From positions 1 to 24,409 of IMG/VR virus record IMGVR_UViG_3300032011_000126: a stretch of DNA of 24,409 nucleotides. One strand, written 5' to 3'. This document shows positions 3,035 through 21,339 of this stretch, in pieces (position 1 is the first letter of the stretch; each line of letters opens with the position of its first letter). A model generated the notes under the pieces. That model saw only the letters and a list, made by a program, of their open reading frames with translations, made no database searches and was not told the DNA's origin. Source of the stretch: a virus. A program made the translations under genes and the position numbers.

Positions 3035-4629
3035 TATGACAACCCTGCACCTGAGATGTAGCTAACACTACTGGTTAGCCAAATCAGAGTAGCCATTCCT
3101 CTAGCCGCAAGAGTACGACTGCCTGTTGCGCCATCAGCCGTGTTGTAAATAGTATGATTACTTCCTTGGGTAATTGTTTGATCAGATCCACTATCATTCA
3201 CTAAAGTGACAGCATCACCCACAGACATTACTCCATTTGGAATAGTCCAACCCCCGGTTGTATTAGGTATGAATTTCCCTGCATCTGAAGCTGTAATAGT
3301 ATAAGCTCCTGTTTTTGCATTTTTTGGTATAGTACGAAGATCGCCTTTGCTGTCTGATACCGTTCCAGCAAAAGTGGCGTTCTGTGAGGCATCTAAGGTT
3401 AAGGCTGTTGTACTAGTAGTTTGGAATTGAAGTGTGGAAGCTGATTGATTAACTGCTATATATCCAACAGCTGTACCTCCATCAATCCATAGTTCTAATC
3501 TTTTATTACCAGATTCTTGACTTTCTATTTTTATTCTTGGATCAGTCGCACCTTGAACTTCTAATTCAGTATCTGGAGTTGCAGTACCAATACCAACCCG
3601 ATTATTCGTAGCGTCAACGTGAAGTGTATTTGTATCGACTGTTAGGTTTCCACTGATACCAAGAGAAGTAAGCGTCCCCAAACTTGTGATCGCAGATTGA
3701 GCAGCACCCGTAACCGTTGCAGCACTTCCAGAAACATTACCTGTAACATCACCAGTTAATGCACCTACAAAGGATGTAGCTGTTAATGCTCCAGAACTAG
3801 AGTTAAAGGTTAAATTACTTCCAGATTTAGCTCCTAGATCACCTGTTGCAGCAGTCGCAAATAATGGGAAGCAAGTTGTATCAGATGACTCATCAGCAAT
3901 TGTGATTGCAGTTGCTATGGCTGCTGTTCCAGAACATGAGCCTGAAGAACCTGAAGCATTTCCAGTTACATTTCCAGTTAACGCACCAACAAAACTTGTA
4001 GCTGTTAACGCTCCAGTATTTGAATTAAACGTTAAATTTGTTCCAGATTTAGGTGGTAAGTTTCCTGTTGCTGCTGTAGTAAATAGAACATTACAGCTAG
4101 TATCAGTAGATTCATCAGCAACCGTAACTTGTGTTGCGGGACCAGCAAAAGATGTAGCTGTACAAGTACCTGTAATATCTAAACCATTACCATCAAAATC
4201 TAAAATTTTAACCCCATTAGAAGTAAACCCTACAGAACCAGAGCCAATACGATACCAACCTGTATCTGTATCACTTTCAAATGTAAAACTTGGAGAAGCA
4301 ACAGTACCATCTGGGAACTCTGAACCTGCTGTTACATAATCAGCACCTGCATAAATTACACCAAAGAAAGCGTGTCCGTTAGCTGGAGCAGAACTAAATA
4401 CTATATTTGATCCTAATAACTTGAAACCTGCACTACCACCGGGATCTGGTTCCTGTACAACACCATTAACAGATATCATTACCTGCTGCGTATTTATAGG
4501 AAACGGAACAGGACTAGCTCCTCCTACTTGTAAAGCAAAAGAGGTTGTACTCCCATTGAATCCTGAACTGATATCGTCAATTATCTTATAGCTAGGATTT
4601 GCAATCTGCAGATCGTTCCCAATATACAT
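3034..4629 (-). CDS. Putative tail fibre protein with tandem repeats
   Basis: This 531-residue protein is rich in Thr, Ser, Gly and Ala. The N-terminus (about 1-100) resembles the conserved virion-attachment domain of cyanophage fibres, with MISVNGVVQEPD and FFGVIYAG. Residues about 112-150 contain a DTDTGWYRIGSGSVGF motif typical of trimeric fibre shafts. Two 61-residue repeats, at about 167-227 and 242-302, share ADES-T, NLTFNS and ALTATSFVGALTG. After about residue 340 come RVGIGTATPDTELEV and a C-terminal part with GDAVTLVND, a shaft or knob region seen in many marine phage fibres. The upstream neighbour is a tail assembly chaperone-like gene, and the stop overlaps the next start. The role is inferred to be host attachment. 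A TATAAT box at 4649-4654 on this strand is a possible promoter element. Confidence 0.8.
   Translation of the reverse strand: MYIGNDLQIANPSYKIIDDISSGFNGSTTSFALQVGGASPVPFPINTQQVMISVNGVVQEPDPGGSAGFKLLGSNIVFSSAPANGHAFFGVIYAGADYVTAGSEFPDGTVASPSFTFESDTDTGWYRIGSGSVGFTSNGVKILDFDGNGLDITGTCTATSFAGPATQVTVADESTDTSCNVLFTTAATGNLPPKSGTNLTFNSNTGALTATSFVGALTGNVTGNASGSSGSCSGTAAIATAITIADESSDTTCFPLFATAATGDLGAKSGSNLTFNSSSGALTATSFVGALTGDVTGNVSGSAATVTGAAQSAITSLGTLTSLGISGNLTVDTNTLHVDATNNRVGIGTATPDTELEVQGATDPRIKIESQESGNKRLELWIDGGTAVGYIAVNQSASTLQFQTTSTTALTLDASQNATFAGTVSDSKGDLRTIPKNAKTGAYTITASDAGKFIPNTTGGWTIPNGVMSVGDAVTLVNDSGSDQTITQGSNHTIYNTADGATGSRTLAARGMATLIWLTSSVSYISGAGLS
3724..4131 (-). repeat. Tandem 225-bp-spaced repeats inside fibre gene
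   Basis: Two copies encode residues about 167-227 (4131-3949) and 242-302 (3906-3724) of the 531-residue fibre protein. Both contain an ADES-(T/S)-DT start, an AATG-(N/D)-L middle and an ALTATSFVGALTG end. The spacing is 75 residues. Confidence 0.75.
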
Positions 4630-4682
4630 CTTTAGTATTTAGTAACTTATTATATCTATTGTATTCTGCCCTTATACAGGTC

Positions 4683-4997
4683 TTAATCCGTATGAGGTCC
4701 TTTTGTCGATGGAGTGGTAGGCCATTTAACAGCACTATACCCATCAACTCGGTATGTTTGAGGAATATCTCTTAAAGATTGTCTATAAGCAGCCCATGCT
4801 GACTGATCAACAGTACAACCTGGAGTCATTGTCCAATCTGTTGTTTTTAAAAGAAAATCTCTCTTCTTACGAATAATTGCCCAACTTGTTTCTTCTAAAT
4901 TCAATATTGTCTTATCAAATTGCTTGTCAATCTCCTCTTTAATAACTGTAAATTGATTTTGAAGCGTAGCAATGTCGCCAACTAGTGTTAATCCCAT
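4683..4997 (-). CDS. Tail assembly chaperone-like protein (Phage_tail_APC type)
   Basis: This 104-residue protein has two parts. Residues about 1-45 form an amphipathic, coiled-coil-prone helix. Residues about 45-80 match the pattern known from Phage_tail_APC proteins: RDFLLKTTDWT, then a Pro/Cys turn, then WAAYRQSLRDIPQ. The key residues are the TDWT motif and the W-x-x-YRQ-L-R-DIP motif. Proteins with this domain are found near tail fibre genes, and some act as fibre assembly chaperones. Its place directly before the 531-residue fibre gene fits that. The window gives no sign of the frameshift used by the classical tail-tube chaperones. The family match is by eye. Confidence 0.75.
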   Translation of the reverse strand: MGLTLVGDIATLQNQFTVIKEEIDKQFDKTILNLEETSWAIIRKKRDFLLKTTDWTMTPGCTVDQSAWAAYRQSLRDIPQTYRVDGYSAVKWPTTPSTKGPHTD

Positions 4998-5001
4998 AAT
5001 C

Positions 5002-5343
5002 TTAAGTCTGATCGAGGTAGCTAACAGTTAAATCAACAGCAGAACCAGTGGCTGCTCTAGCCCTTAAAATATCACTAGATTCCATAATAATTTTACTTCC
5101 ACTAATGAGTTCTAAGGATGATCCTGCTGGAACTGGTACATCTTTTAGTAAATAAACATCATCTCCTGAGTTAGTAACAACGTAAACGTCTAAATTTACA
5201 CTTGTACTTGTCTTATTAGCACATAGACAACTAAGAAGAATTAATGTTGAAGATCCTCCTGCGGTAAGGATGTTTGTATTAGTACTACTCACAGCGTCTG
5301 TAACAACACTGGATTTAGTAGCCATCTTGAAAGTATTGGCCAT
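5002..5343 (-). CDS. Small beta-rich virion protein
   Basis: This 113-residue protein is made almost entirely of predicted beta strands. Typical segments are SSTLILLSCLCANKTS, SVNLDVYVVTNSGDDVYLLKDVPVPAGSS (split here as one jelly-roll-like run) and a closing GSAVDLTVSYLDQT. From memory, similar roughly 110-residue proteins with an N-terminus like MANTFK and a 'KD-PVPAGSSLE' turn occur widely in marine phages and are annotated only as structural. The gene sits in the fibre array, 4 bases from its downstream and 1 base from its upstream neighbour. No catalytic motif is seen. A decoration or fibre-accessory role is an inference from context. Confidence 0.7.
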   Translation of the reverse strand: MANTFKMATKSSVVTDAVSSTNTNILTAGGSSTLILLSCLCANKTSTSVNLDVYVVTNSGDDVYLLKDVPVPAGSSLELISGSKIIMESSDILRARAATGSAVDLTVSYLDQT

Positions 5344-5344
5344 A

Positions 5345-5743
5345 TTAACTTAGAGCTACAATGAGAGCGAGGTTGTCTGGGTATGATCCTGTTACAGATA
5401 GATCTCCACTAATGGAGACATTTCCTGAAAAAGTAACAACACCTGATGAGTCTATTGTAAGCCTTGCACTACCTCCAGTAGCAAGCCCTATTTGATCTGG
5501 TCCACCAGAAAATAGCCCAGTATTCGTATCACCTACAAAAGCAAGAGAGGGATTTGTACCTGTCCCTGTTAGCAGTGCAGAATTACTTCCGTCATTTCTT
5601 AATAAGGAAAAACCACCTGGAGTTGTTCCATCATGTATAACACAAGTATTAAGACTCGTATTTACAGTAACTTCTCCTACGGCTCCAGTAAAAGTACTGG
5701 TCTCACCTGTAGTGCCTCTTCGGAATTGTACTTGGGTTGACAT
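5345..5743 (-). CDS. Short fibre protein with Mtd-N-like head
   Basis: This 132-residue protein starts MSTQVQFRRGTT, followed by GAVGEVTVNTSLNTCVIHDG. This is the pattern of the N-terminal domain shared by major tropism determinant-type and many other fibre proteins, in which a short 'QFRRGT' strand precedes 'GE-T-VNT...-V-VHDG'. Residues about 70-110 carry the same DTNTGLFSGG...GSARLTIDSSG motif as the shaft of the 531-residue fibre. The protein ends in a hydrophobic LALIVALS tail. It is short for a full fibre and may be an adaptor that joins others in a trimeric shaft. I see no variable-repeat or reverse transcriptase cassette. Confidence 0.7.
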   Translation of the reverse strand: MSTQVQFRRGTTGETSTFTGAVGEVTVNTSLNTCVIHDGTTPGGFSLLRNDGSNSALLTGTGTNPSLAFVGDTNTGLFSGGPDQIGLATGGSARLTIDSSGVVTFSGNVSISGDLSVTGSYPDNLALIVALS

Positions 5744-5747
5744 AAGC

Positions 5748-6977
5748 CTATCCTAATGCAACTGCTATTGCGGTAGCAAAACTTTCAGTGGATATTGTCC
5801 CTGAATCGTTAGGTGCCGTTAATGTTCGAGTCGTACTACCAGATATACCTGAACATTCAAAAGCTAATTGTTTTGTATTATCTGAGTTATCTCTAATTCT
5901 GAAGCCGTCGTCATTAGTAACTATTGCATTGCAAGTAAAGGAAGACAAACCAGCAATTGTAGAAGCTGTTCCTCCTAAAGCAACTGCGGTACTACCTATT
6001 GTCACAGTGCTATTAGCTAATTGAGCATTAGGAATAGAACTTGTACCAAATGCACCTGTAGATGAGTTATATGTAAGTCCTGAACCACCTGCAACACTTA
6101 ATGAACTTAATAAAGCAACAGTACCTGCAGCGTTCGGAAAATTAATAGCTCTATCAGCAGTCGCATCCACAACATTAATTGTGGTTTCATAACCATCTGC
6201 TGTCGATCCCTCAAAAACAAGTCCAGCAGTCCCTATAGATACTGAGTTAACAGCGTTAGCAGCTCCTGCATAAAGAGTTGTAGCTGTTAATGAAGTTAAG
6301 CCTGCAATTGTAGAAGCTGTAGCTCCTAAAGCTATAGATGTACTACCAATAGTCAAAGAATTAACTGTTGGAGTAATAGTAGAAGCTGTTGTTAAAAGAG
6401 TACCCGTCTCATTTGGCAGTGTAAGAGTACGATCAGCAGTTGCATCCGTTGCTGTCAGAGTTGTTTCGTAACCATTGGCTGTTGAGCCTTCAAAAACTAT
6501 ATTTCCACTAGCTATTGATATTGAATTTGCAGCATTAGCAGCTCCTGAATAAAGAGTAGTAGCAGTCAGAGAAGTTAATCCGGCAATCGTTGATGCAGTA
6601 GCTCCTAAATTAATAGAGGTACTACCAACAGTTACCGAACTATTAGCTAATTGACTATTAGGTATTGCATTTGTACCTATTTCTCCAGAACTAATAGTTA
6701 AGCCAGAACCGCTAGCTACACTAATAGCGCCCGTAATGTCTGAGTTAGATGGTCCAGTATAAGTGATAGCTCCAGTACTACCGTTATAAGCTAAACTTCC
6801 TAAGCCACCTGCGTCTGTAACAGAAACAGCGCCTCTAGCTCGTGCATTTGTGTAATAAAGATTAGTACCTTCAGGTATATCGGTGGAGGAATTACCACCA
6901 AGATCTAATTTATCTGAAGAAGTGTTTAACTCCTGAAACAGACCACTAACAATTACAAGTGATTTTCTTGTTGCCAT
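5748..6977 (-). CDS. Repeat-rich tail fibre protein
   Basis: This 409-residue Ser/Thr/Ala/Gly-rich protein has an N-terminal (about 30-100) segment with NLYYTNARARGAVSV and an SDITGAISV-like pattern, as in phage fibre shafts. Two long repeats occupy residues about 117-197 and 209-290; each contains ASTIAGLTSLTATTLY, FEGSTA-GYETT and DATADR. A shortened third copy begins near 327. A second nested duplication pairs residues 87-134 with 294-342 (GSGLT...IPN-QLANS-VT-GST). The C-terminus (about 353-395) has DGFRIRDNSDNTKQLAFECS, a motif I recall from fibre proteins of marine phages. The gene lies between the Mtd-N-like gene and the paired 153/176-residue genes. The inferred function is host attachment or a structural shaft. 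Confidence 0.75.
   Translation of the reverse strand: MATRKSLVIVSGLFQELNTSSDKLDLGGNSSTDIPEGTNLYYTNARARGAVSVTDAGGLGSLAYNGSTGAITYTGPSNSDITGAISVASGSGLTISSGEIGTNAIPNSQLANSSVTVGSTSINLGATASTIAGLTSLTATTLYSGAANAANSISIASGNIVFEGSTANGYETTLTATDATADRTLTLPNETGTLLTTASTITPTVNSLTIGSTSIALGATASTIAGLTSLTATTLYAGAANAVNSVSIGTAGLVFEGSTADGYETTINVVDATADRAINFPNAAGTVALLSSLSVAGGSGLTYNSSTGAFGTSSIPNAQLANSTVTIGSTAVALGGTASTIAGLSSFTCNAIVTNDDGFRIRDNSDNTKQLAFECSGISGSTTRTLTAPNDSGTISTESFATAIAVALG
5928..6629 (-). repeat. Tandem 276-bp repeats inside fibre gene
   Basis: Two near-full copies at 6629-6387 and 6353-6108, and a truncated third from 5999, encode the ASTIAGL...DATADR units of the 409-residue fibre. Unit spacing is 92 residues, in frame. 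Confidence 0.75.
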
Positions 6978-6986
6978 GTCTTAATT

Positions 6987-7448
6987 TTAACCAACCTTAA
7001 CTGGGGGTTCTAAACTTACGTGCAAAGAAGCACCTGATATAGCCTCACCTACCCTCGTCATATATTGTCCTGAACCAGTAGGAGCAGTAGACGTTATACC
7101 TCCATAGCCTGTACTAAGAAAATAAAGTTCTCCTGCATCCAAACCAGAAGTTGCTAAATTTCCAAATACAAGACATCTGACTGTTTCACCAGTAGATTTA
7201 CTTGTTTGTGCAAAACCTACAACTCTTGCCTCATCTGCATTACCAGCAGCTCTGGCTAAACCTAACTTCCCATCACTACTCCTTGCATATAAAGGCTGTC
7301 CTTGAACAACATTCTCAAATGCAATAGATTCAAAACCAGCAACAGAATAAACATTTCTCCCACCTAAAGTATCTTTTAAATCAATAAGAGCCTCTGTAAA
7401 ACCCTTAGAATTAGGGGCATATGGTGTGTAATTACTTGTTCCAGCCAT
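6987..7448 (-). CDS. Fibre-array protein, paralogue of upstream gene
   Basis: This 153-residue protein is clearly related to the 176-residue gene just upstream. Both begin with a Y-x-P-N-x-x-G helix (GFTEALIDLKD), then have an F-E-(N/T)-V strand, a (Q/D)-(P/A)-(L/V)-Y-(A/M)-RSSDG-(K/Q)-(L/V)-G segment, a VVGF/I strand, a 'L-x-x-G-(E/D)-LY-(F/Y)-LS' segment and a TAPTGSGQ-MTRVGEA finish that ends in EPPVK. The beta-rich VGFA/VGIT core resembles small decoration or fibre-tip domains (DUF2190-like folds), but no proof is visible. Its start overlaps the stop of the upstream paralogue by one base, and it is probably translated by coupling. Confidence 0.7.
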   Translation of the reverse strand: MAGTSNYTPYAPNSKGFTEALIDLKDTLGGRNVYSVAGFESIAFENVVQGQPLYARSSDGKLGLARAAGNADEARVVGFAQTSKSTGETVRCLVFGNLATSGLDAGELYFLSTGYGGITSTAPTGSGQYMTRVGEAISGASLHVSLEPPVKVG

Positions 7449-8716: not shown

Positions 8717-11020
8717 CTAAATATTAATATAAAGATCAGCATCGACAACAGTATCTTGATCTGTTAGAGGTGAATATGTCGAAGAATCAATAATACTGAC
8801 AGTAGTTGCATCTTCTGTTGGCGTTCCACTTATATATTCTCCTCCATCTATCAAACCTGCTTCAAATTCCGAGGTATATTCACTCAGAGGCTTGTTAATA
8901 ATACCTAACTTTACGTCTTGTAAGAGAGTTGGTGATTTATTAAAGAGTTTATTAACTAAATTAATCATTCTATTAGTTAAATTTGATGCTTTACCAGATC
9001 TACTTAACTTTCCTTCAGTATCTCTTTTTACACTATCTGTAAGTGTCATTCCAATAAGAGATGGATCGAAATCTGCAACAGATTGAGGTAAACCACGATT
9101 ACCTATAACCTCTTTTTGACCACTCCAAGCTGTATTCTGCTTGACAAGTAACAAAGTCTCCACAGCCGACTCTAATTTCTCCTTCTCTTTCTCAAATTTA
9201 TGTTCAAAACGTTCTAAACCTTCACCAATTGGCTTGTCATTCGGCTCTAATAACCATGCTCCTACATAATCATGCTTCTTTAAGTTACTAATCGTACAAT
9301 ACCCGCTTGTTTGACTACTAAATGGATAAATAACAACAAAATTATCAGAATTAGGTACAGACGTAACTGTATATTCACCAGATAAAGCATTTCCGCTCGT
9401 AAAAGTTATTTCAAGTTTAGTATTTGCTTCTAAATTATGCCCAACAACATTAATAGTAATATTTGGACCATTTTGAACATAAGAACCAGTTAAATTAATG
9501 GGATCATTACCTTCATCATGTTTTAAAGCAAACATGGCGGCATAAATGTGTTTGCACCACCTTAATTGGTAATACATCAAATTAGCTGTATCATTTCCAC
9601 TAGTATCTTCATAATCAGGAAGCTGATAGAAGTTATTAATGGCGACAAAACCTAAATCTCTAAATGTACCTGGAATATCTCTTTCATCGCTATAAGTTCC
9701 ATCTGGCTGTAATACCTGTCCTGGTTTAGTTGAACGTACTGTTGTAGTTGGAAAACGTCTTTTTGTTAATTCACTATATAGATCGTAACTATCTCTACGT
9801 GAAAAATCTTGACAGGAGCATTGCCAGCGTAACTCGGTAGTTAAATATCTACCAACAGTAAAACCACGATGTGCTGGAACAACTGTCTTTGTAACAGTAT
9901 CTACTGTAGTAGCTCCATAGCTATCCTTTCTTTGGAAAATTATCTCTTTATTAGAGGCATCAATACCTGTAACGGTGTATCCAACATAGTCGTCATACCT
10001 ACGACCACGTAGTAATCTACTTAAAGTTAAATTACCATTTGTATTACCACTCGTAATAGTAGATATTTCTAATTGAGTTGTATTAGGAACCGTAACAGTA
10101 TATCTACCAGAAGAAACATCTCCGCTACTTACATCTATGTATACTTTATTGCCTGTAGATAAGCCATGTGCTGAACTACATGTGATAGTAAGAGTTGAGC
10201 CTACTCTCGCATAAGTAGAACTAATACCAGGATCTTTTTCAATAATACGATCTGCTAGACGTTCCCCTGCAAAGAAAGTAACATCTGTAGGGATATAGCG
10301 AAGGCGAACTCGAATAACAGTCCAACGCGAATCCCCAAAAGTAGTCGATAAATAATAATTAACATTTCCGCTAACATTAACTGCTGTCGAAGCCGTTACT
10401 GTGAAAGTATTTTGTGTCGTACTAACAATAGTTAAAGTTTCATCAACACCTGCACCAGATTGAATATCTAGATAGACACTTTCTCCTGGATACAAACCGT
10501 GATCTTGCTTTGTAATTACCAACGTAGTACCAGCTTGATTATAAGTTCCACTAACCACATTTCCTAAATATCTAACACCCAAGATCGGTAATCCGTGCTC
10601 ATAAAAACTAAAAGCATCAGTATCTCTCATGCCAACTAACTGTTCACCTAATTCTTGATTAACCGAAGGGAAAGTATATATTCGAGCAGGAATAAAGACA
10701 CCTGGGTATTGTTGAAAAGTGAAATAAACTCGATAATCTCCTCTTCTTCCTCTCTCAGATGCAGTGGAACCTAAAAAACTCTGTGTCGCAGCATATAATT
10801 CATACCCTCGTCTCCAGCGAGACCATAAGGAATCTGTATTGTAAAAATCAACTTCACTATTTTTATAACTCTTTCTATTACTAGAAACATCAAAAGGTGT
10901 TCTTTCATGACCCCACTTCGCAGTTTTGCCAAACTGTTTCTCGTCTTCAAATGTCTTTGAAAATTTAGTATTAAAACCTAATTTTGAAGGATTACTAAAT
11001 CCTTTTGCCCCAAATGGCAT
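8717..11020 (-). CDS. Large virion/tail protein with SWIM-like zinc motif
   Basis: This 767-residue protein is built from a leading domain (1-150, Phe/Tyr/Arg-rich) and three Ig-like HGL modules at about 158-224, 269-334 and 512-577. Each module has H-(G/N)-L, then a V-Y-(L/I)-D-(I/V)-like or LEITF strand, then S-(G)-x-Y-TVT. A C401-x-C403 pair and a C489-x-H491 pair match the SWIM pattern CxC...CxH, including the usual CKHIYAA, but the spacer is 85 residues, much longer than usual. A coiled coil (about 603-625) and a Ser/Thr/Asp-rich tail follow. The position after the connector genes suggests a tail or nozzle-type protein. Zinc binding has not been shown, and the assignment as a tail component is inference from order. 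Confidence 0.75.
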   Translation of the reverse strand: MPFGAKGFSNPSKLGFNTKFSKTFEDEKQFGKTAKWGHERTPFDVSSNRKSYKNSEVDFYNTDSLWSRWRRGYELYAATQSFLGSTASERGRRGDYRVYFTFQQYPGVFIPARIYTFPSVNQELGEQLVGMRDTDAFSFYEHGLPILGVRYLGNVVSGTYNQAGTTLVITKQDHGLYPGESVYLDIQSGAGVDETLTIVSTTQNTFTVTASTAVNVSGNVNYYLSTTFGDSRWTVIRVRLRYIPTDVTFFAGERLADRIIEKDPGISSTYARVGSTLTITCSSAHGLSTGNKVYIDVSSGDVSSGRYTVTVPNTTQLEISTITSGNTNGNLTLSRLLRGRRYDDYVGYTVTGIDASNKEIIFQRKDSYGATTVDTVTKTVVPAHRGFTVGRYLTTELRWQCSCQDFSRRDSYDLYSELTKRRFPTTTVRSTKPGQVLQPDGTYSDERDIPGTFRDLGFVAINNFYQLPDYEDTSGNDTANLMYYQLRWCKHIYAAMFALKHDEGNDPINLTGSYVQNGPNITINVVGHNLEANTKLEITFTSGNALSGEYTVTSVPNSDNFVVIYPFSSQTSGYCTISNLKKHDYVGAWLLEPNDKPIGEGLERFEHKFEKEKEKLESAVETLLLVKQNTAWSGQKEVIGNRGLPQSVADFDPSLIGMTLTDSVKRDTEGKLSRSGKASNLTNRMINLVNKLFNKSPTLLQDVKLGIINKPLSEYTSEFEAGLIDGGEYISGTPTEDATTVSIIDSSTYSPLTDQDTVVDADLYINI

Positions 11021-11025
11021 CGTTC

Positions 11026-11811
11026 TTAGTAATAACCACCTTGAACATTACAATAGAAACCAGTTGTTAATGCAGTAGCACCTGTTGCTGCTACGTATAA
11101 ACCTTGACCTCTCTTTAACATAAGACCACGTTGTTTCGGAGCTACTTCGTTATTTGCAGTAACAAAATTAGAACCTGCTTGTACTACAGGATGATTAATA
11201 AAAGGTAGATCCTCATTCAATGTAAGACTATAATTCTGCTTTGATGCAACAGAATCAATACTCGCTGTGAATAAAGGGAAATATTGGTTGGTATTAGTTA
11301 CAGTTCCAGTACTTACTAAGTAAAAACAAAATAAAGTCGGTTGATAAACAGTAACGTTACCAGTGATAGCACCTTGTGAAGGTATGGTGACATCAAATGT
11401 TGTCGCAGTTACTTTAATAACACTAAAAGTATTATCTACAGGTACTGCTCCTCCGCTATAAGTCGTAAAATCTAATTTAACTTCTTGCCCTACTTTTAAA
11501 TGGTGACCAGCAGTAATGGTAACTGTACAAGTTGTCGAGTTAGCTGCATATGTTCCAGTTGTTCCTGCACTAGGTGCCATAAATTCAACTTCATGTTTCC
11601 CATACTGAAACCAAATTTCATCTATATATGCACCACTGATAGATGTATCTGTTAAAGCGGAGTCTGCATCAAAAACTTTCGTCGCATTACCAACCGCTGT
11701 TGGAATAAAGCTTGTACCAAAACTTTGACCAGCCGCAACAGTTACTAAAGTAGATGTTGTCGCTGGACGATCTACCATTAATGGCTGTTTATTTGAACTA
11801 CTGCTTGACAC
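11026..11811 (-). CDS. Structural protein with an HGL-type module
   Basis: This 261-residue protein probably starts at GTG 11811 (the first residues are Ser-rich); an ATG 11 codons further in is an alternative. Residues about 85-156 repeat the same module as the next gene, beginning H-H-L-K-VGQEVKLDF and ending GNVTVYQPT. A C-terminal segment has KRGQGLYVAATGATALT, a typical closing strand of phage structural proteins. The 53-base gap upstream carries TATAAT at 11837-11842 on this strand, a possible promoter box. No ribosome site is apparent. Its role is probably a tail or connector component, but no named family is recognised. Confidence 0.7.
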   Translation of the reverse strand: MSSSSSNKQPLMVDRPATTSTLVTVAAGQSFGTSFIPTAVGNATKVFDADSALTDTSISGAYIDEIWFQYGKHEVEFMAPSAGTTGTYAANSTTCTVTITAGHHLKVGQEVKLDFTTYSGGAVPVDNTFSVIKVTATTFDVTIPSQGAITGNVTVYQPTLFCFYLVSTGTVTNTNQYFPLFTASIDSVASKQNYSLTLNEDLPFINHPVVQAGSNFVTANNEVAPKQRGLMLKRGQGLYVAATGATALTTGFYCNVQGGYY

Positions 11812-11864
11812 GTTTATTTACTAGTAGATTTAAAACCTATTATAACGGAAGAGTTTCTTATAAT

Positions 11865-12059
11865 CTAAGAATAATTTCTGACATGTGGCCAATCATCAGG
11901 AAAAGTTTCCCAATTTGGCATTCCTTTGAATGTCTCCCATACACCTAAATCTTCAGGTCTTACAGCTTTGTCTGAATAACCTACACCTTGAGGGGCTGCC
12001 ATGTAATTTGCAATAATAGCTCCAACTGCTGGACTACCTGCCATTCTTTGACGTGCCAT
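11865..12059 (-). CDS. Small hypothetical structural-operon protein
   Basis: This 64-residue protein begins with a basic MARQRMAG segment, then VGAIIANYMAAPQGVGYSD, then an acidic and aromatic half with WETFKGMPNWETFPDDWP. It sits one base after the stop of the 56-residue gene and reads in the same direction as all its neighbours. The Trp/Asp-rich C-terminus and the small size suggest a tail-connector accessory, but I recognise no family. Tight spacing supports it as coding. The opposite strand also has an open frame here, but it is a poorer match to the operon. Confidence 0.6.
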   Translation of the reverse strand: MARQRMAGSPAVGAIIANYMAAPQGVGYSDKAVRPEDLGVWETFKGMPNWETFPDDWPHVRNYS

Positions 12060-12060
12060 C

Positions 12061-12231
12061 TTATGCTCTTAAATCTATACCTAATTTAGAACCAGCATAT
12101 CTACGTGGTTCCCTAGAATTAACAAATTTTTCCTCACCCCCATGCTCAGGTTCGTAAGGTTCTCTTACTCTCCAACGATGAGGTCTTATCCCTTCTCTAT
12201 AACCTAATCTAGTAGTAGGACGAATAGACAT
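12061..12231 (-). CDS. Small basic protein (56 residues)
   Basis: ATG at 12231-12229 opens a 56-residue frame that stops at TAA 12063-12061. One base separates it from the stop of the 114-residue gene (12235-12233) and one from the start of the 64-residue gene (12059), so it fills this gap exactly. The protein is rich in Arg and Pro (begins MSIRPTTRLGYREGIRPHRW), has an acidic middle (EPYEPEHGGEE) and a basic end. No family is recognised. The tight packing, with only one base on each side, is strong evidence that it is real despite its length. The role is unknown; a virion neck or connector partner is possible. Confidence 0.65.
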   Translation of the reverse strand: MSIRPTTRLGYREGIRPHRWRVREPYEPEHGGEEKFVNSREPRRYAGSKLGIDLRA

Positions 12232-12232
12232 T

Positions 12233-12577
12233 TTAAGAAGCAGCTATACTAAAGACCACAGTGGCAGCAGTACCTCCATTCTCAGAAACAAATCTTGGTC
12301 TTATCCATCTAACAGGAGTATTAGCAACGTTATACACAGAAGTACCATTAGCTGTTATTGTCTTTTCAGCAATAATTATTCCGTAGTTTGTACCATCAAT
12401 ACTTCCTTCTAAAGTGACTTTTACGTTGGTATTTATAGTGGCAACAGTAACAATAAGAGTGTAGTCCTTTGTGTTGAACGTATTGTTTACAGCTACTTGT
12501 AAAGCGGTACCAACACCAGGAGCTTCTAAAGCACTATCTGTCTGAAAAATAGTATCTTGAAAGTAAGTTATAGCCAT
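12233..12577 (-). CDS. Small beta-rich structural protein
   Basis: This 114-residue protein is almost all beta strand: TKDYTLIVTVATINTNVKVT, then LEGSIDGTNYGIIIAEKTI and a C-terminal segment with VRWIRPRFVSENGG and TVVFSIAAS. The motif 'LEGS-DGTNY' followed by 'V-W-RP-(F/V)V' is one I associate with small structural proteins of tailed phages that resemble a jelly roll or discoidin fold. It lies between the connector-like gene and the two small proteins, in the head-to-tail section. Head completion, tail terminator or decoration are all possible. The frame has an ATG start and no clear ribosome site. Confidence 0.65.
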   Translation of the reverse strand: MAITYFQDTIFQTDSALEAPGVGTALQVAVNNTFNTKDYTLIVTVATINTNVKVTLEGSIDGTNYGIIIAEKTITANGTSVYNVANTPVRWIRPRFVSENGGTAATVVFSIAAS

Positions 12578-14688: not shown

Positions 14689-14696
14689 ACCTCCTT
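14689..14696 (-). promoter_or_regulatory. Strong Shine-Dalgarno site for accessory capsid gene
   Basis: AAGGAGGT on the minus strand, nine bases from ATG 14679, overlapping the stop of the capsid gene. It is the only perfect site I see in front of a gene here. Most other starts lack any such site. Confidence 0.8.
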
Positions 14697-15843
14697 ACTC
14701 AGATACCGTGAAGGCTGTTGTGATGAAGTCCTTGTTCAAGTTCGCAAAACCAGCATATAGCTGCCATATTAAAATAATGAATCTCGAAAAGTCATCATTA
14801 TTATTAATTAGAACTTGAGCATTAGGTCCACCAATACCTACACCGATAGCCTGAGGACCGAAGAACAATCCAGCAGGAGTAGTTTTGGAGCCTGCACCAT
14901 TACCATCACCTATATCAGAGGTAATAGTTTTAGCAGGGAAGTTTGTAGATTCGAAGAATCTTACTCCTTCGAAAACAAACCCGGATGGCATTACTGGCTC
15001 TCCAGCTACGAACTGAGCTTGGCCATATTGACCACCGCCGTAGATAGCTTGGTTAGGAGAACCGGCACCCATTAGAGGAGAGCCTTGTCCAGGCATTCCA
15101 GGGTAGCGAGCAACTTCACGGAAGCCTTGATCTGCACGAAGATCCTTCATGAATGAAGGGTCAGCAATACATCTATAGTAGCCGTCTTCAAAGACAGGTA
15201 CGTGACGCTTACGTAGACTCTTTACAACTTCTAAAAGGTCAGTTTTTACGTTGAACTTAAAGCGCTCAGAAGCATATTCTGTAGCTGTATAAGCGGTAAG
15301 AGTAGTTGAGTTTGTTTTTGCTTTACCATTTGGATAGTAGTATCCACCTTGAGAATCAGATGACTGTCCACGAGACTCACTCTTGAAGAGTTCGTCAATG
15401 AAGACTCTGTCACGCCAACGACGGTAGTCGTCTAAAAGCGTAAGGCTACCAATCGACTGGTGGAACATATTAAGGTTCCCAGTATCAAGCAGCAGACGCT
15501 GTGCTGTCATCAAGGTCTCACGAGCAATCTTGAAAGTGCTAGGGAGATTGTTGTTATTTGGATCGGCTGGTCCTGTATACTCACGAAGAGATACAAGTAC
15601 TTTATCCTTGACAATAGATCTGCTGTTAGCTGTACCTATGGTTTGATCCTGAGTACGCTCACGGCTTGTCTTTGTTCCTGGATTGCCGAAAAATCTGTAG
15701 CGGTCGAGTTGTACGGTCTGTCCAGGTTGCTTCGTAAAATCATGTACGACTACTGGCTCAGCAGCCATCTCTACGATATACGCTGGATGGGGACGATACA
15801 ATTCCGCGCCAAGGAGTTTGGGGAAATCGTTATCAATAAACAT
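14695..15843 (-). CDS. Probable major capsid protein
   Basis: This 382-residue protein begins MFIDNDFPKLLG; two stop codons directly upstream fix the ATG as the furthest possible start. The features fit a HK97-fold capsid: an N-terminal extended region with PGQTVQLDRYRFFGNPG (charged E-loop-like), a helical region with RETLMTAQRLLLDTGNL and DDYRRWRDRVFIDELF (spine-helix-like), a middle rich in Gly and Asn, and a closing strand-rich part (AQFVAGEPVMPSGF). The gene is preceded by scaffold, portal and terminase and followed by an accessory gene and a terminator, the usual order. No ribosome site is seen. Instead its 128-base leader contains perfect stem-loops at 15852-15866 and 15875-15889. The fold assignment is inferred from order, length and composition. 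Confidence 0.8.
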   Translation of the reverse strand: MFIDNDFPKLLGAELYRPHPAYIVEMAAEPVVVHDFTKQPGQTVQLDRYRFFGNPGTKTSRERTQDQTIGTANSRSIVKDKVLVSLREYTGPADPNNNNLPSTFKIARETLMTAQRLLLDTGNLNMFHQSIGSLTLLDDYRRWRDRVFIDELFKSESRGQSSDSQGGYYYPNGKAKTNSTTLTAYTATEYASERFKFNVKTDLLEVVKSLRKRHVPVFEDGYYRCIADPSFMKDLRADQGFREVARYPGMPGQGSPLMGAGSPNQAIYGGGQYGQAQFVAGEPVMPSGFVFEGVRFFESTNFPAKTITSDIGDGNGAGSKTTPAGLFFGPQAIGVGIGGPNAQVLINNNDDFSRFIILIWQLYAGFANLNKDFITTAFTVSE

Positions 15844-16806: not shown

Positions 16807-17847
16807 TTATTCCATTACAAGGAGCTTCTGACGGAAGACCTCAGGGTTTTGCTGGGCAGCATTTAGATACTTCCATGCATTCTGAGGATCTCTATCAGCA
16901 GCACTTCCAAAGTTGTTCCAGAAGTCGCCTGGGTTAGCCGCAGCTTGTGGCTGTGGTGGAACAGGCATCTCAGGACGCTGTGGAGCGTTTACTGGTGCTT
17001 GAGCTTGAGTTTGAGCTTGTACTTGACCTTGTGTCTGGAACTGTTGCCCTACTGTTTGACGAGCTTGTGCAGGAGCTGCAGGAGCTTGCTTGGAAACAGG
17101 GTGAGGACCATTAGGACCAAAGAACTTAGTAGTATAGTCAGCTAAAACATTAGGATCTGTAAGAATTCTTGTATAAGCTTTATGCTCTGCATTCAAATCC
17201 TTTAAAAGATTTACTCCTTGCTTTAATTGTGTATCAGTCTTAATTAATGAATCTTCTATCTTGCATGCATAGTCATTAAGTATGGCTGGAGCGTCAGCAC
17301 CAAAATGATCAATTACTTGAAGACTTGCTTGACTTACTCCGCTTGCCGCTAGCTGCTCCTGGGTTATCCCCGTAGATGTTTGGGAAGAGTCGTTGGAGTA
17401 AACCTGGTTGTTGTTGATCCCAGGCGTAGAGGTCGGCTGAACCGGGTTGCTGTATTGGGTTGCTGGTTGGGAAGCGTAGTTGGCCTGGCCTGCTGCTTGA
17501 CTCTGAGTCGATTGTTGACCCTGGAACGGGAACTGGACTGGTGAACTCAGGAGCCCGACTACCTTGTTGAATGCCTCCTTGTATGGACTCTCCTGTTGTT
17601 GGGGAGCCTGATATTCTTGGTAGCTTGACGGAGTAGGGTTGTACTGGGGAGTCGTTACGCCCATCTGCGCTTGCACTGATGGAGCTGGTGCCGCCATGGA
17701 TTGGGAGTTGGCTACCCACTGCGGCGACGTTGCCACTGCTGCTGGTGCCTGTGCCACTGCCTGAGCCGCTGGAGCCACGTAGCTGGTCGGCTGGGTCTGG
17801 GATACTTGGGGTGCCGATTGGGTCGGCGCTACGGTAGCGTCCTGCAT
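16807..17847 (-). CDS. Scaffold-like protein, 5' half inside the portal gene
   Basis: This 346-residue protein begins at ATG 17847, with an AAGGA ribosome site about nine bases before it and an in-frame stop just upstream, so the start is well placed inside the portal gene. Residues about 1-160 are disordered and rich in Ala, Pro, Gln, Ser and Thr. Residues about 165-245 are helical (ASLQVIDHFGADAPAILNDY, then KIEDSLIKTDTQLKQGVNLL and LTDPNVLADYTTKFF). A Gln/Ala/Pro linker and a C-terminal helix region (DPQNAWKYLNAAQQNP) follow. A mostly disordered, helix-containing protein between portal and capsid suits a scaffold. The first 180 codons share DNA with the portal C-terminus in another frame. 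A family name is not certain. Confidence 0.75.
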   Translation of the reverse strand: MQDATVAPTQSAPQVSQTQPTSYVAPAAQAVAQAPAAVATSPQWVANSQSMAAPAPSVQAQMGVTTPQYNPTPSSYQEYQAPQQQESPYKEAFNKVVGLLSSPVQFPFQGQQSTQSQAAGQANYASQPATQYSNPVQPTSTPGINNNQVYSNDSSQTSTGITQEQLAASGVSQASLQVIDHFGADAPAILNDYACKIEDSLIKTDTQLKQGVNLLKDLNAEHKAYTRILTDPNVLADYTTKFFGPNGPHPVSKQAPAAPAQARQTVGQQFQTQGQVQAQTQAQAPVNAPQRPEMPVPPQPQAAANPGDFWNNFGSAADRDPQNAWKYLNAAQQNPEVFRQKLLVME

Positions 17848-19585
17848 AAGTTAATTCCTTCTGAAGTTGCTCTAGTGTTTTATATAGAAATGGAGTGAGA
17901 TCGAGTCTCGGATCGGCAGCCATCGGTAAATTCGGTTGCTGCGGATGTGGCGTTCTCATTTCTTGATTAGCTAAATCAATGAAAGCAGAGAATGCTCTTT
18001 GTACCTCTCCGACCATTCTAAACGGATAACCAGATAACATCGTTGCTATCTCGTCGTCAGTTTTGGAAGGAAATAGGTACTTCAGTGCTTCTATGCTATC
18101 AACGCCTAATTCTTGTAGGTTCCTGACAAATATAGATTGATTCAATTTATCTTGTGCAGTATCCTCATAAACGGGTCCCATCCACCGCCATAGAATGGTT
18201 CTATCACCATCAGGTGCAAGTCCTACAACTCCATCGGGTATCTCTCCTGTCTCAAGTGCAAGATCAACTGCTTGTTGTAATTTAACCTCATATTTCATCT
18301 TTCCTTTCTCATACTTCTCAACTGCTTTTTCATCAGTTAAATCTTCAGGAACAACTGGATATTTGATTCCAGAGACAAAAGCAAGAGACTTTTTAAATAT
18401 CTGTTCTTCTTGGAAAAGTATTAATTCAAAGCATTTACATATTCCATACGTGTATAGCTGTAGGCATTTCTTCTTAGCAGTGGCGCTGACACGTCCATAG
18501 GCAGACTTAATCTCTGTTGCAGTAACATTTGTGATACTTAGGTCATCTATGCCTCCTAAGGCGAGACGTAGCTCACTACGGAGCTGTTCTGCATATCTAG
18601 CCTGATCTGTACTAACCGCATTCGGTGTAATAAAACCAACACGATCAGCTGGCTCCAAGTTTGAGATGACTCTTGGAACACGTAAACCTGAACCTGGCTT
18701 TCCTATATAACCTGGCTGCGTTCTAGTTATTGGATCTTGCTTAAATGTAGAACTAGATAAATCAAAGTTGGATTGGAACCCTGATTGACTAGAAATACTT
18801 GGCCTTTGTACTGCACCATCTTCGGAACTTTCTACAATATCTTGCTTAGGACGAGAAGAAAGTAATGTTGGATTACCAAAGAACGATAAGTTTGCTCTTA
18901 TGTTCTTAACCATCTCATCATGAGCGATGATTTGATTAGATAACCACTCAAACTCACCTGCGCCATCAGTTCCAAAAGCATCAGGATTATTGAAAACTTC
19001 TATACATGGAATGAACTCCATGGTGTTTTCTAAAATCTTCTTATTACCAGAACCAAAATTAACAGTATCCTGCTCAAAAGTTATTTCGTGTTCACTATGA
19101 AACTCTTCAATTTCACTTGCAGTAATACGTAAACGCATATAACGCTTATCTGTATTTAAACCTGCTCCGTTAAAACCTTTCTTAGAACGGACCTTGTAAG
19201 CATAAATAATAATTACTTCTTCTAATTCACCTTCTGGTGTGTAGTAAGTACGGTATGCATCCTTATCAAACCAATAAATACGATATGTCTTCCTTGTAGG
19301 TCTTATATAAAATAAGCCTTTTCCATAAGCTAAAAATCTATCCCAAATTGAATCAAGTCGTGCATCTAGTTTATTGAATTTTATTACTTGCTGAATAAAG
19401 TCAAACCGTTGGGTTCCTAAATTATCTTGCTGGGGAAAAAATTCGACTCCCTGTCTTATCCCAAACATCTTCATTTGAGATAAATGGGCGTTGATCAACA
19501 TGGTATCGGCAGTACCGTTACCATCTCGTTCTATAACTGATTTTACAATAGAATCGAGTGCGGATTTACTATTACTATCGCTCAT
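17309..19585 (-). CDS. Portal protein
   Basis: This 758-residue protein follows the terminase and the AbrB-like gene. The N-terminal 250 residues match portal-type sequence: LAYGKGLFYIRPTRKTYRIY (about 86-105), EEVIIIYAY (122-130), then FIPCIEVFNNPDAFGTDGAG (191-210) and VKNIRANLSFFGNPTLLSSR (226-245). Residues 350-400 form the helical stem and crown region (TATEIKSAYGRVSATAKKKC). From about residue 580 it becomes a Gly/Ser/Pro-rich disordered tail of about 180 residues, longer than usual for portals. That tail is the part encoded in the overlap with the scaffold-like gene. The portal forms the ring through which DNA is packaged and leaves the head. Assignment rests on order and these motifs. 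Confidence 0.85.
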   Translation of the reverse strand: MSDSNSKSALDSIVKSVIERDGNGTADTMLINAHLSQMKMFGIRQGVEFFPQQDNLGTQRFDFIQQVIKFNKLDARLDSIWDRFLAYGKGLFYIRPTRKTYRIYWFDKDAYRTYYTPEGELEEVIIIYAYKVRSKKGFNGAGLNTDKRYMRLRITASEIEEFHSEHEITFEQDTVNFGSGNKKILENTMEFIPCIEVFNNPDAFGTDGAGEFEWLSNQIIAHDEMVKNIRANLSFFGNPTLLSSRPKQDIVESSEDGAVQRPSISSQSGFQSNFDLSSSTFKQDPITRTQPGYIGKPGSGLRVPRVISNLEPADRVGFITPNAVSTDQARYAEQLRSELRLALGGIDDLSITNVTATEIKSAYGRVSATAKKKCLQLYTYGICKCFELILFQEEQIFKKSLAFVSGIKYPVVPEDLTDEKAVEKYEKGKMKYEVKLQQAVDLALETGEIPDGVVGLAPDGDRTILWRWMGPVYEDTAQDKLNQSIFVRNLQELGVDSIEALKYLFPSKTDDEIATMLSGYPFRMVGEVQRAFSAFIDLANQEMRTPHPQQPNLPMAADPRLDLTPFLYKTLEQLQKELTYAGRYRSADPIGTPSIPDPADQLRGSSGSGSGTGTSSSGNVAAVGSQLPIHGGTSSISASADGRNDSPVQPYSVKLPRISGSPTTGESIQGGIQQGSRAPEFTSPVPVPGSTIDSESSSRPGQLRFPTSNPIQQPGSADLYAWDQQQPGLLQRLFPNIYGDNPGAASGKRSKSSKSSSN

Positions 19586-19815: not shown

Positions 19816-21339
19816 TCAATACTCTAACTCTAGTTTTCCTCTGGTCATCAATCCATTACATAGCCAAACCAAAGCATCTACACAATCATCGTGAGAACTA
19901 ACACCAAAATTTACGATCTCATCTGTTAAAGCAGTGAACTTCCGATACTTATTAAAAGTAATCTTTCTTTGTTCAAATAGACCCATAATTCCCCTAAAAC
20001 GTGCAACTTTGTCTCCTCTAAATCCTTTAACAGGATGCCAAAGAACGTTATACAATCCCTGATCTCCTAAACATATCCGTTTAAAATCAGCTTCCAACGA
20101 TGCCTGATAAGCAACTGCTTCAGACCACACATGAATCGAACTCCCTGTAGGGAAATAATTATCTCCATCTTTATGGATAACACCCCACTCTTCCATCATT
20201 TCCATTAATGCCTCTAACTTCTCTAGATTTCCCATTATCCTTATTCTTTTACAATCAATAATATGAATTTTATTTCCGATTCTTCCACCCATTACAAAGA
20301 CAGTAAAGTCATTCTGCTCTCTTACACCAGCTGAAAGGTCAACTCCAATACCCATTTCATCAAAGTGAGTCGAAATAGCACCTTTAACAACCAAATCTGG
20401 AGAAAGAGATAACTCACTCGTTTGTACAATTTGATTTTGATACTGGAAACTAAAAGCAACTGGAGCTTGTCTTCTTCTATCTCGCAAATAATCCAAAGAC
20501 CACATGTCAGGCCAATACGAAATCTCTTCACCATCTTTATCAACGGTGATTGCAGATTGAACTATTTGAACCCAGTCATTAGCTGGAGTAAAAGTACTGT
20601 TGTGAATATCATCATGACGGAAACGAGTTCCTAAACAAATAGCTCTTCCTCCTTCAAACATAGTTGGAACAATGACGGAGTTCCAGTTATCTTGCATAGC
20701 TTGGCGAATATCCCTGTTCTTAATATCATCTGCACTTTTAATTGCGTCATCAATAATACAAAGATGTGAACGTTTAGATGTCACAGCACCTTTCAATCCT
20801 GCACAACAAACAGTAAATTCTTCTTCACCTGTTGACTTAATACCTGCAAATTTCCAATCAATACTCCAATATTCATTTGAATTTATACCTTTTGCAATCT
20901 TTACTCTGGGGAAAATTTCACGATAAGTCTTACTCTCTTCGATAATCCTTTTGATAGCTGCACTCTTAGGTCTTGCAACATCAACAGTGTAAGAAATATA
21001 TAAAACCTTTAATGGTTGCTTGTTAAGAGCATGTATACCAACTGTCCAAGCTGTATATAAACCAAGAATTGTTGATTTAGCACTACCTCTTGGTGCCAAG
21101 ATATCAATGTTTGGTCCACCAATACCAACTAAACACTCACTATCCTTTCCTGTACATAAATAACGATGCCATTCTTTATGGTGCGTGGCTGGTGGTTTAT
21201 CTCCTACAACATCACAAAAGTAGGCAAAATCTTCTCGTGCTCTTTCTATATCAATATTAGATGTTTTTTTGACAACTTGTTGTTTAGCGGCTGCTCTCGC
21301 AGTTCGTCGATAAACACTGTAAATACTTGTTCCTGCCAT
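19816..21339 (-). CDS. terL: Terminase large subunit
   Basis: This 507-residue protein has the full motor and nuclease layout. The Walker A motif is APRGSAKST (82-90), where the Gly-Ser-x-Lys-Ser arrangement is typical of phage terminases. Walker B is HLCIIDDAI (about 192-200, with adjacent Asp197/Asp198). A coupling segment LGTRF follows (236-240). The RNase H-like nuclease has GVDLSAG (332-338, Asp334), and the closing acidic cluster is HDDCVDALVW (483-492, Asp484/485/488). It cuts the concatemer and pumps DNA through the portal. No ribosome site is visible. Its position, 24 bases after the candidate small subunit and next to the AbrB-like gene and portal, is typical of packaging modules. 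Confidence 0.95.
   Translation of the reverse strand: MAGTSIYSVYRRTARAAAKQQVVKKTSNIDIERAREDFAYFCDVVGDKPPATHHKEWHRYLCTGKDSECLVGIGGPNIDILAPRGSAKSTILGLYTAWTVGIHALNKQPLKVLYISYTVDVARPKSAAIKRIIEESKTYREIFPRVKIAKGINSNEYWSIDWKFAGIKSTGEEEFTVCCAGLKGAVTSKRSHLCIIDDAIKSADDIKNRDIRQAMQDNWNSVIVPTMFEGGRAICLGTRFRHDDIHNSTFTPANDWVQIVQSAITVDKDGEEISYWPDMWSLDYLRDRRRQAPVAFSFQYQNQIVQTSELSLSPDLVVKGAISTHFDEMGIGVDLSAGVREQNDFTVFVMGGRIGNKIHIIDCKRIRIMGNLEKLEALMEMMEEWGVIHKDGDNYFPTGSSIHVWSEAVAYQASLEADFKRICLGDQGLYNVLWHPVKGFRGDKVARFRGIMGLFEQRKITFNKYRKFTALTDEIVNFGVSSHDDCVDALVWLCNGLMTRGKLELEY

Follow-up and report, generated by a model that had tools for sequence, protein, structure and literature searches.

Portal and putative scaffold genes share about 540 nt in two reading frames in phages related to cyanophage S-EIV1

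The gene block and its nearest relative

The stretch of DNA analyzed here (the window), a virus record 24,409 bases long, comes from a marine relative of cyanophage S-EIV1. Its minus strand carries a block of genes for terminase, portal, a scaffold-like protein, a 198-aa protein and the major capsid protein, in that order:

19816–21339, minus strand: terminase large subunit, 507 aa (phrog_38, E 1.3e-76)
17309–19585, minus strand: portal, whole open reading frame, 758 aa
16807–17847, minus strand: scaffold-like gene, whole open reading frame, 346 aa
15972–16568, minus strand: gene for a 198-aa protein, between the scaffold-like and capsid genes
14695–15843, minus strand: major capsid protein (phrog_1357, major head protein, E 3.4e-15), which gives context for the scaffold assignment

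Among annotated phages, the sole relative of the window was Synechococcus phage S-EIV1 (KJ410740), whose lineage corresponds to gOTU G238 (PMC5332604). Homologous portal, capsid protein and terminase (51–55%, 70% and 66% identity, respectively) in a syntenic order place the window among the S-EIV1-like cyanophages. Comparison of the two genomes also revealed several features of the flanking genes. The S-EIV1 terminase gene (positions 4535–7075 of its sequence) is annotated at 2541 nt and matches the window's 507-aa terminase in two separate pieces, such that this over-long gene may hold an insertion, for example an intein. The S-EIV1 capsid gene can be read as a plus-strand frame of about 383 aa (11314–12465) that is 70% identical to the window's, and GenBank presents the region as a minus-strand hypothetical gene (11239–12000) plus a plus-strand fragment (11995–12465). 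The window's 198-aa protein probably has an N-terminal membrane segment and matched nothing in PHROG or Pfam.

The portal assignment rests on family membership and on fold. The window's protein matched phrog_20475 (E 1.5e-213) and the portal family phrog_64 (E 2.3e-4), and relatives matched the portal families phrog_64 and phrog_104 with best E-values of 3e-5 and 2e-3. A Foldseek search of the PDB returned phage portals for all of the top 31 matches with T7 gp8 first, and because the underlying AlphaFold model is poor (mean pLDDT 41) we use this fold match only to support portal identity. By sequence the protein was not assigned to the T7 type, as T7-like portal profiles gave hhalign probabilities of 0.2–0.3%, and a sequence search of solved structures with the portal and scaffold profiles gave no match. 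Alignments for structure prediction contained the locus sequences of the window and its relatives only, with the GenBank S-EIV1 row excluded.

The second protein is likely the capsid scaffold, judging from its position and its predicted shape. Its gene sits between those for portal and major capsid protein, and AlphaFold predicted a first half that is disordered except for a helix at residues 88–100, followed by central helices (186–243, pLDDT up to 83) and a C-terminal bundle (306–345). Profile searches found no family match for the window's protein, its AlphaFold model had no fold match, and no similarity to T7-like scaffold profiles was seen.

Geometry of the overlap

The portal and scaffold-like open reading frames have 539 nt in common on the same strand, with the scaffold frame lying +1 relative to portal, i.e., one base 3' of the portal frame. 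The parts are as follows:

17849–19585, minus strand: portal core, residues 1–579, coding in a single frame (assigned from the phrog_20475, phrog_64 and Foldseek matches above)
17309–17848, minus strand: portal C-terminal tail, residues 580–758 plus stop, Gly/Ser/Pro-rich (omega 0.34 marine, 0.44 freshwater)
17309–17847, minus strand: N-terminal half of the scaffold-like protein, 180 codons, Ala/Pro/Gln-rich (omega 0.15 and 0.25; ATG kept in 190 of 190)
16807–17308, minus strand: C-terminal half of the scaffold-like protein, outside the overlap (helices 186–243, helical bundle 306–345; from pLDDT and alignment)
17856–17860, minus strand: Shine-Dalgarno site AAGGA, 8 nt 5' of the scaffold ATG and within the portal frame

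A preliminary description made from the sequence had reported this overlap at 17309–17847, a ribosome site at the scaffold start, and GC contents of 65% at 17701–17820 and 35% at 18301–18360, and each was reproduced (65.0% and 35.0% for GC). Across the whole overlap GC is 57.1% versus 39.4% for the window. In the low-confidence portal model, the last predicted helix of the core spans residues 564–581 and the scaffold ATG falls at its end. Under the arrangement we propose, the portal gene contains a separate ribosome-binding site and ATG from which the scaffold would be translated, while the portal frame continues to residue 758, such that about 540 nt would encode two proteins.

An open second frame in one sequence is in itself modest evidence, because Gly/Ser/Pro codons seldom yield stops in the +1 frame. 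The 180-codon stretch is the longest open +1 stretch among the 12 genes of the window (the next longest is 83), and codon composition by itself kept the second frame open in 4.6–8.7% of trials for the window's sequence, the upper value coming from shuffles of synonymous codons. Such shuffling at other loci gave values from 0 to 74% depending on sequence. We accept the overlap as real because it is kept in 190 distinct relatives and because selection acts in both frames, as described below.

Conservation among relatives

Scans of viral contigs and bacterial genome contigs yielded 190 distinct loci with both gene ends, of which 81 were closer to the window and 109 closer to S-EIV1. The overlap was present in every one of them, at 476–677 nt (median 548), and the scaffold ATG stood at the same portal codon throughout, the isolate S-EIV1 included. 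The start context was TATG in 188 loci and CATG in the other two (L070 and L071), where portal Tyr580 has become His and yet the scaffold ATG is retained. A Shine-Dalgarno motif (AAGGAG, AAGGA, AGAGG or AGGAG) at a spacing of 6–8 nt was found in 188 of the 190, and the N-terminal scaffold peptide MQDATV is common to groups with 55% portal identity.

Scanning with a portal-core motif independent of the junction revealed no overlap-free relative, and the other new matches were contigs ending before the overlap. The preliminary description had named a portal ending near residue 580, or a frame lacking conservation, as what would speak against it; among the relatives no portal ends there save where the contig stops, and both frames are conserved. 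The sole exceptions to the overlap look like damaged or truncated contigs: L066 and L202 are a single contig with an out-of-frame deletion within the overlap, L107 has its stop within about 10 nt of the contig end, L249 stops at the portal length of L107 and likewise near its contig end, and L172 is ridden with frameshifts. In the first of these (IMGVR_UViG_3300030110_000115) the deletion fuses the portal tail motif onto the beginning of the scaffold, which could be natural or an assembly error. Separately, S-EIV1-like contigs (L281–L283) with an intact portal/scaffold overlap lie inside bacterial MAGs (Bacteroidetes IN_BCD_1 and bacterium LLD_282), probably through binning contamination.

Selection in both frames

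At portal third positions, which are free to vary elsewhere, nucleotide diversity was lower in the overlap than in the core: 0.255 against 0.415 for the marine group and 0.146 against 0.450 for the freshwater group. Using independent pairs of relatives, we classed substitutions by their effect on each protein, with omega expressed relative to the doubly silent rate. Portal omega among scaffold-silent changes was 0.34 (0.20–0.63) in the marine and 0.44 (0.31–0.62) in the freshwater group, and scaffold omega among portal-silent changes was 0.15 (0.09–0.27) and 0.25 (0.15–0.37), intervals that are wide because doubly silent sites are few. As controls, a phantom +1 frame within the portal core gave 0.97 and 0.99, and a phantom frame within the scaffold tail gave 0.83 and 1.09 with wide intervals. 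With omega below 1 in both frames and phantom frames near 1, both frames are real and under purifying selection, and in the overlap the scaffold frame is held tighter than the portal frame. Doubly silent changes occurred at about the ordinary silent rate of the core (0.061 versus 0.050; 0.033 versus 0.043), and therefore no added RNA-level constraint is visible.

Evaluating constraint along the overlap revealed a mosaic, with two motifs standing out:

17515–17586, minus strand: scaffold-frame motif (N)PYKEAFNKVVGLLSSPVQFPFQGQ, at predicted helix 88–100
17378–17443, minus strand: portal-frame motif GSADLYAWDQQQPGLLQRLFPN, residues 715–736, from conservation and substitution classes

Tail codons 1–24 are constrained in both frames. 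Across codons 25–110 constraint comes chiefly from the scaffold frame and peaks at AFNKVVGLLSSPVQFPFQG (conservation 0.96), with codons 97–108 scoring 0.96 for scaffold versus 0.67 for portal and scaffold-altering changes in the motif there (helix AFNKVVGLLS) running at 0.05–0.09 of neutral. Over codons 111–156 the portal frame is the stronger constraint (GSADL..QPGLL..LFPN): conservation of the portal-frame motif was 0.73–0.85 for portal versus 0.49–0.63 for scaffold, and portal-altering changes occurred at 0.24–0.27 of neutral versus 0.37–0.42 for scaffold-altering ones, in both groups. The portal frame is relaxed at codons 25–84 and from 157 onwards, where portal-altering changes reach 0.30–0.63 of neutral. 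Shared and segregated models of overlap constraint have been reviewed (PMC8227390), and the mosaic seen here is a mix of the two. As for the earlier suggestion that a linker had been overprinted and that both overlapped parts are disordered, two mostly disordered segments do overlap, with disorder predicted for the scaffold N-terminus apart from helix 88–100 and weakly so for the portal tail given its poor model, but neither segment is a mere linker, as each has a conserved motif.

What the overlap encodes

Taken together, these observations very probably reflect a real and old terminal overlap of two co-directed virion-assembly genes. The GenBank record of S-EIV1 presents it otherwise: there the scaffold-like gene starts at 10318 instead of 9742, so that only about its last 133 residues are annotated and about the first 190 are omitted. 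If the downstream gene indeed began after the portal stop, the open frame upstream would be an accident of Gly/Ser/Pro codons, and portal codon composition alone does keep the second frame open in up to 74% of simulations at some loci (and in none at others). That composition does not predict a scaffold-frame omega of 0.15–0.25 where phantom frames give about 1, nor an ATG in all 190 relatives with a Shine-Dalgarno motif in 188, nor MQDATV shared across groups at 55% portal identity; moreover, the window's scaffold-like frame lacks any ATG close to where the portal ends, and we regard a late start as exceedingly improbable. It is also very unlikely that the portal tail is a functionless, passive read-through of the scaffold gene. 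The portal frame is the weaker of the two and relaxed over the two stretches given above (0.30–0.63 of neutral), as such a reading would have it, but portal omega of 0.34 and 0.44 with upper bounds of 0.62–0.63 argues against it, as does the GSADL..QPGLL..LFPN segment, which in both groups is under tighter portal-frame than scaffold-frame constraint. A third reading holds that the overlap serves regulation, with the portal:scaffold ratio being set by translational coupling, by frameshifting or by an RNA element, and the scaffold ribosome-binding site does lie within the portal frame such that portal ribosomes must cross it. We found no stable RNA structure at the scaffold start (6 loci, z from −1.3 to +0.7 versus shuffles), Rfam and tRNA scans had no match, and the rate of change at doubly synonymous sites is about that of core synonymous sites; regulation is thus a very improbable purpose. 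Assembly calls for many more scaffold molecules than the 12 portal subunits, which makes a fixed tie between the two unexpected, and the preliminary description's suggestion that the overlap ties portal and scaffold levels together found no support, given that the scaffold has its own Shine-Dalgarno site and ATG and that no sequestering structure was found at its start.

Portal C-termini point into the capsid interior, where the scaffold sits during assembly, and the P22 portal C-terminal region is unstructured in the procapsid (PMC12005531). By this analogy, the tail with its LFPN motif may, tentatively, touch scaffold, capsid or internal proteins while the procapsid assembles. The tail has a median pI of 9.5 (above 7 in 145 of 190 relatives) and the overlapped scaffold N-terminus a median of 4.1 (above 7 in 0 of 190), and these opposite charges, calculated from sequence, would permit direct interaction without demonstrating one. 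That the basic tail and the acidic N-terminus bind each other in the procapsid strikes us as doubtful; were it so, the overlap would lock together the evolution of an interacting pair.

Order of events

We think it probable that portal and scaffold genes abutted in the ancestor, as they do in T7-like phages, and that loss of the portal stop let the portal frame continue out of phase through the scaffold gene, which would have given portal a newer tail. This extension may have been tolerated because the overlapped part of the scaffold is disordered. Portal–scaffold gaps are +99 nt in T7, +2 in P-SSP2, +2 in VEN, +6 in RHph_TM33 and −4 in BUCT700, and here the scaffold ATG stands at the end of the portal core, where abutting genes would place it. 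The scaffold, furthermore, reaches T7-like size (about 264–307 aa) only with its overlapped half, being about 308–385 aa in full and about 120–185 aa without it. Lastly, of the two overlapping frames that of the portal tail varies more, which is typical of newer frames in known overlaps (PMC8227390).

The opposite order, in which the tail came first and the start of the scaffold shifted upstream into it, is a possibility that we consider unlikely. Long portal C-termini are known elsewhere, such as the P22 barrel (residues 601–725; PMC12005531), and in 97 of 125 loci the portal frame agrees slightly better with codon usage; against this order stand the position of the ATG at the core's end as in abutting T7-like genes, the shortness of a scaffold without its overlapped half, and the greater variability of the tail. 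Both frames fit codon usage poorly and it is uninformative on which frame is older. In the comparison of homologous loci that the preliminary description had proposed for dating the frames, the outgroup junctions suggest a younger portal tail. Since no sequence similarity to T7-like profiles was detected, the support for this outgroup polarity comes from gene order together with a fold match of low confidence, and with codon usage of no help either the order of events stays an inference.

Significance and comparison with known systems

Small RNA and ssDNA viruses provide well-studied examples of long out-of-frame overlaps. A deeply conserved overlap of about 480–680 nt between portal and probable scaffold genes in a widespread dsDNA phage family offers a natural test of DNA sharing enabled by disorder, and with 190 distinct sequences, one cultured relative and motifs for each frame, its age, order and function are directly testable. 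It also reveals that half of an important gene is lost in standard annotation, as for the S-EIV1 scaffold-like protein. Overprinting is already known and the gene order is T7-like; of this portal/scaffold frame overlap we found no published account in the literature searched, which did not cover the S-EIV1 genome paper.

One of the closest systems is the S-EIV1 lineage itself, which belongs to the same family, has a portal core 55% identical to the window's and carries the same overlap (554 nt), and differs in being a freshwater clade. The T7 block (genes 8, 9 and 10) and those of P-SSP2 and Vibrio phage VEN share the gene order, the strand and a scaffold start at the end of the portal core, with T7 gp8 the first fold match of the window's portal, whereas their genes adjoin one another or lie apart (−4 to +99 nt across the T7-like phages compared), their portals are tail-less at about 506–548 aa, and they have no detectable sequence similarity to the portal and scaffold here. 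P22 resembles the window's phage in that its portal has a C-terminal extension, unstructured at the procapsid stage, but this extension turns into a helical barrel in the virion, and no out-of-frame scaffold overlap is seen in the available part of that account (PMC12005531). Terminal overlapping genes that arose by overprinting, in phiX174 and others (reviewed in PMC8227390), are alike in their same-strand 3'/5' overlap, disordered products and segregated constraint; unlike them, the present overlap belongs to a family of dsDNA phages whose genomes are near 80 kb, and overlaps in DNA viruses are usually short, with a median of 15.6 nt overall and 14 nt for +1 overlaps (PMC8903798).
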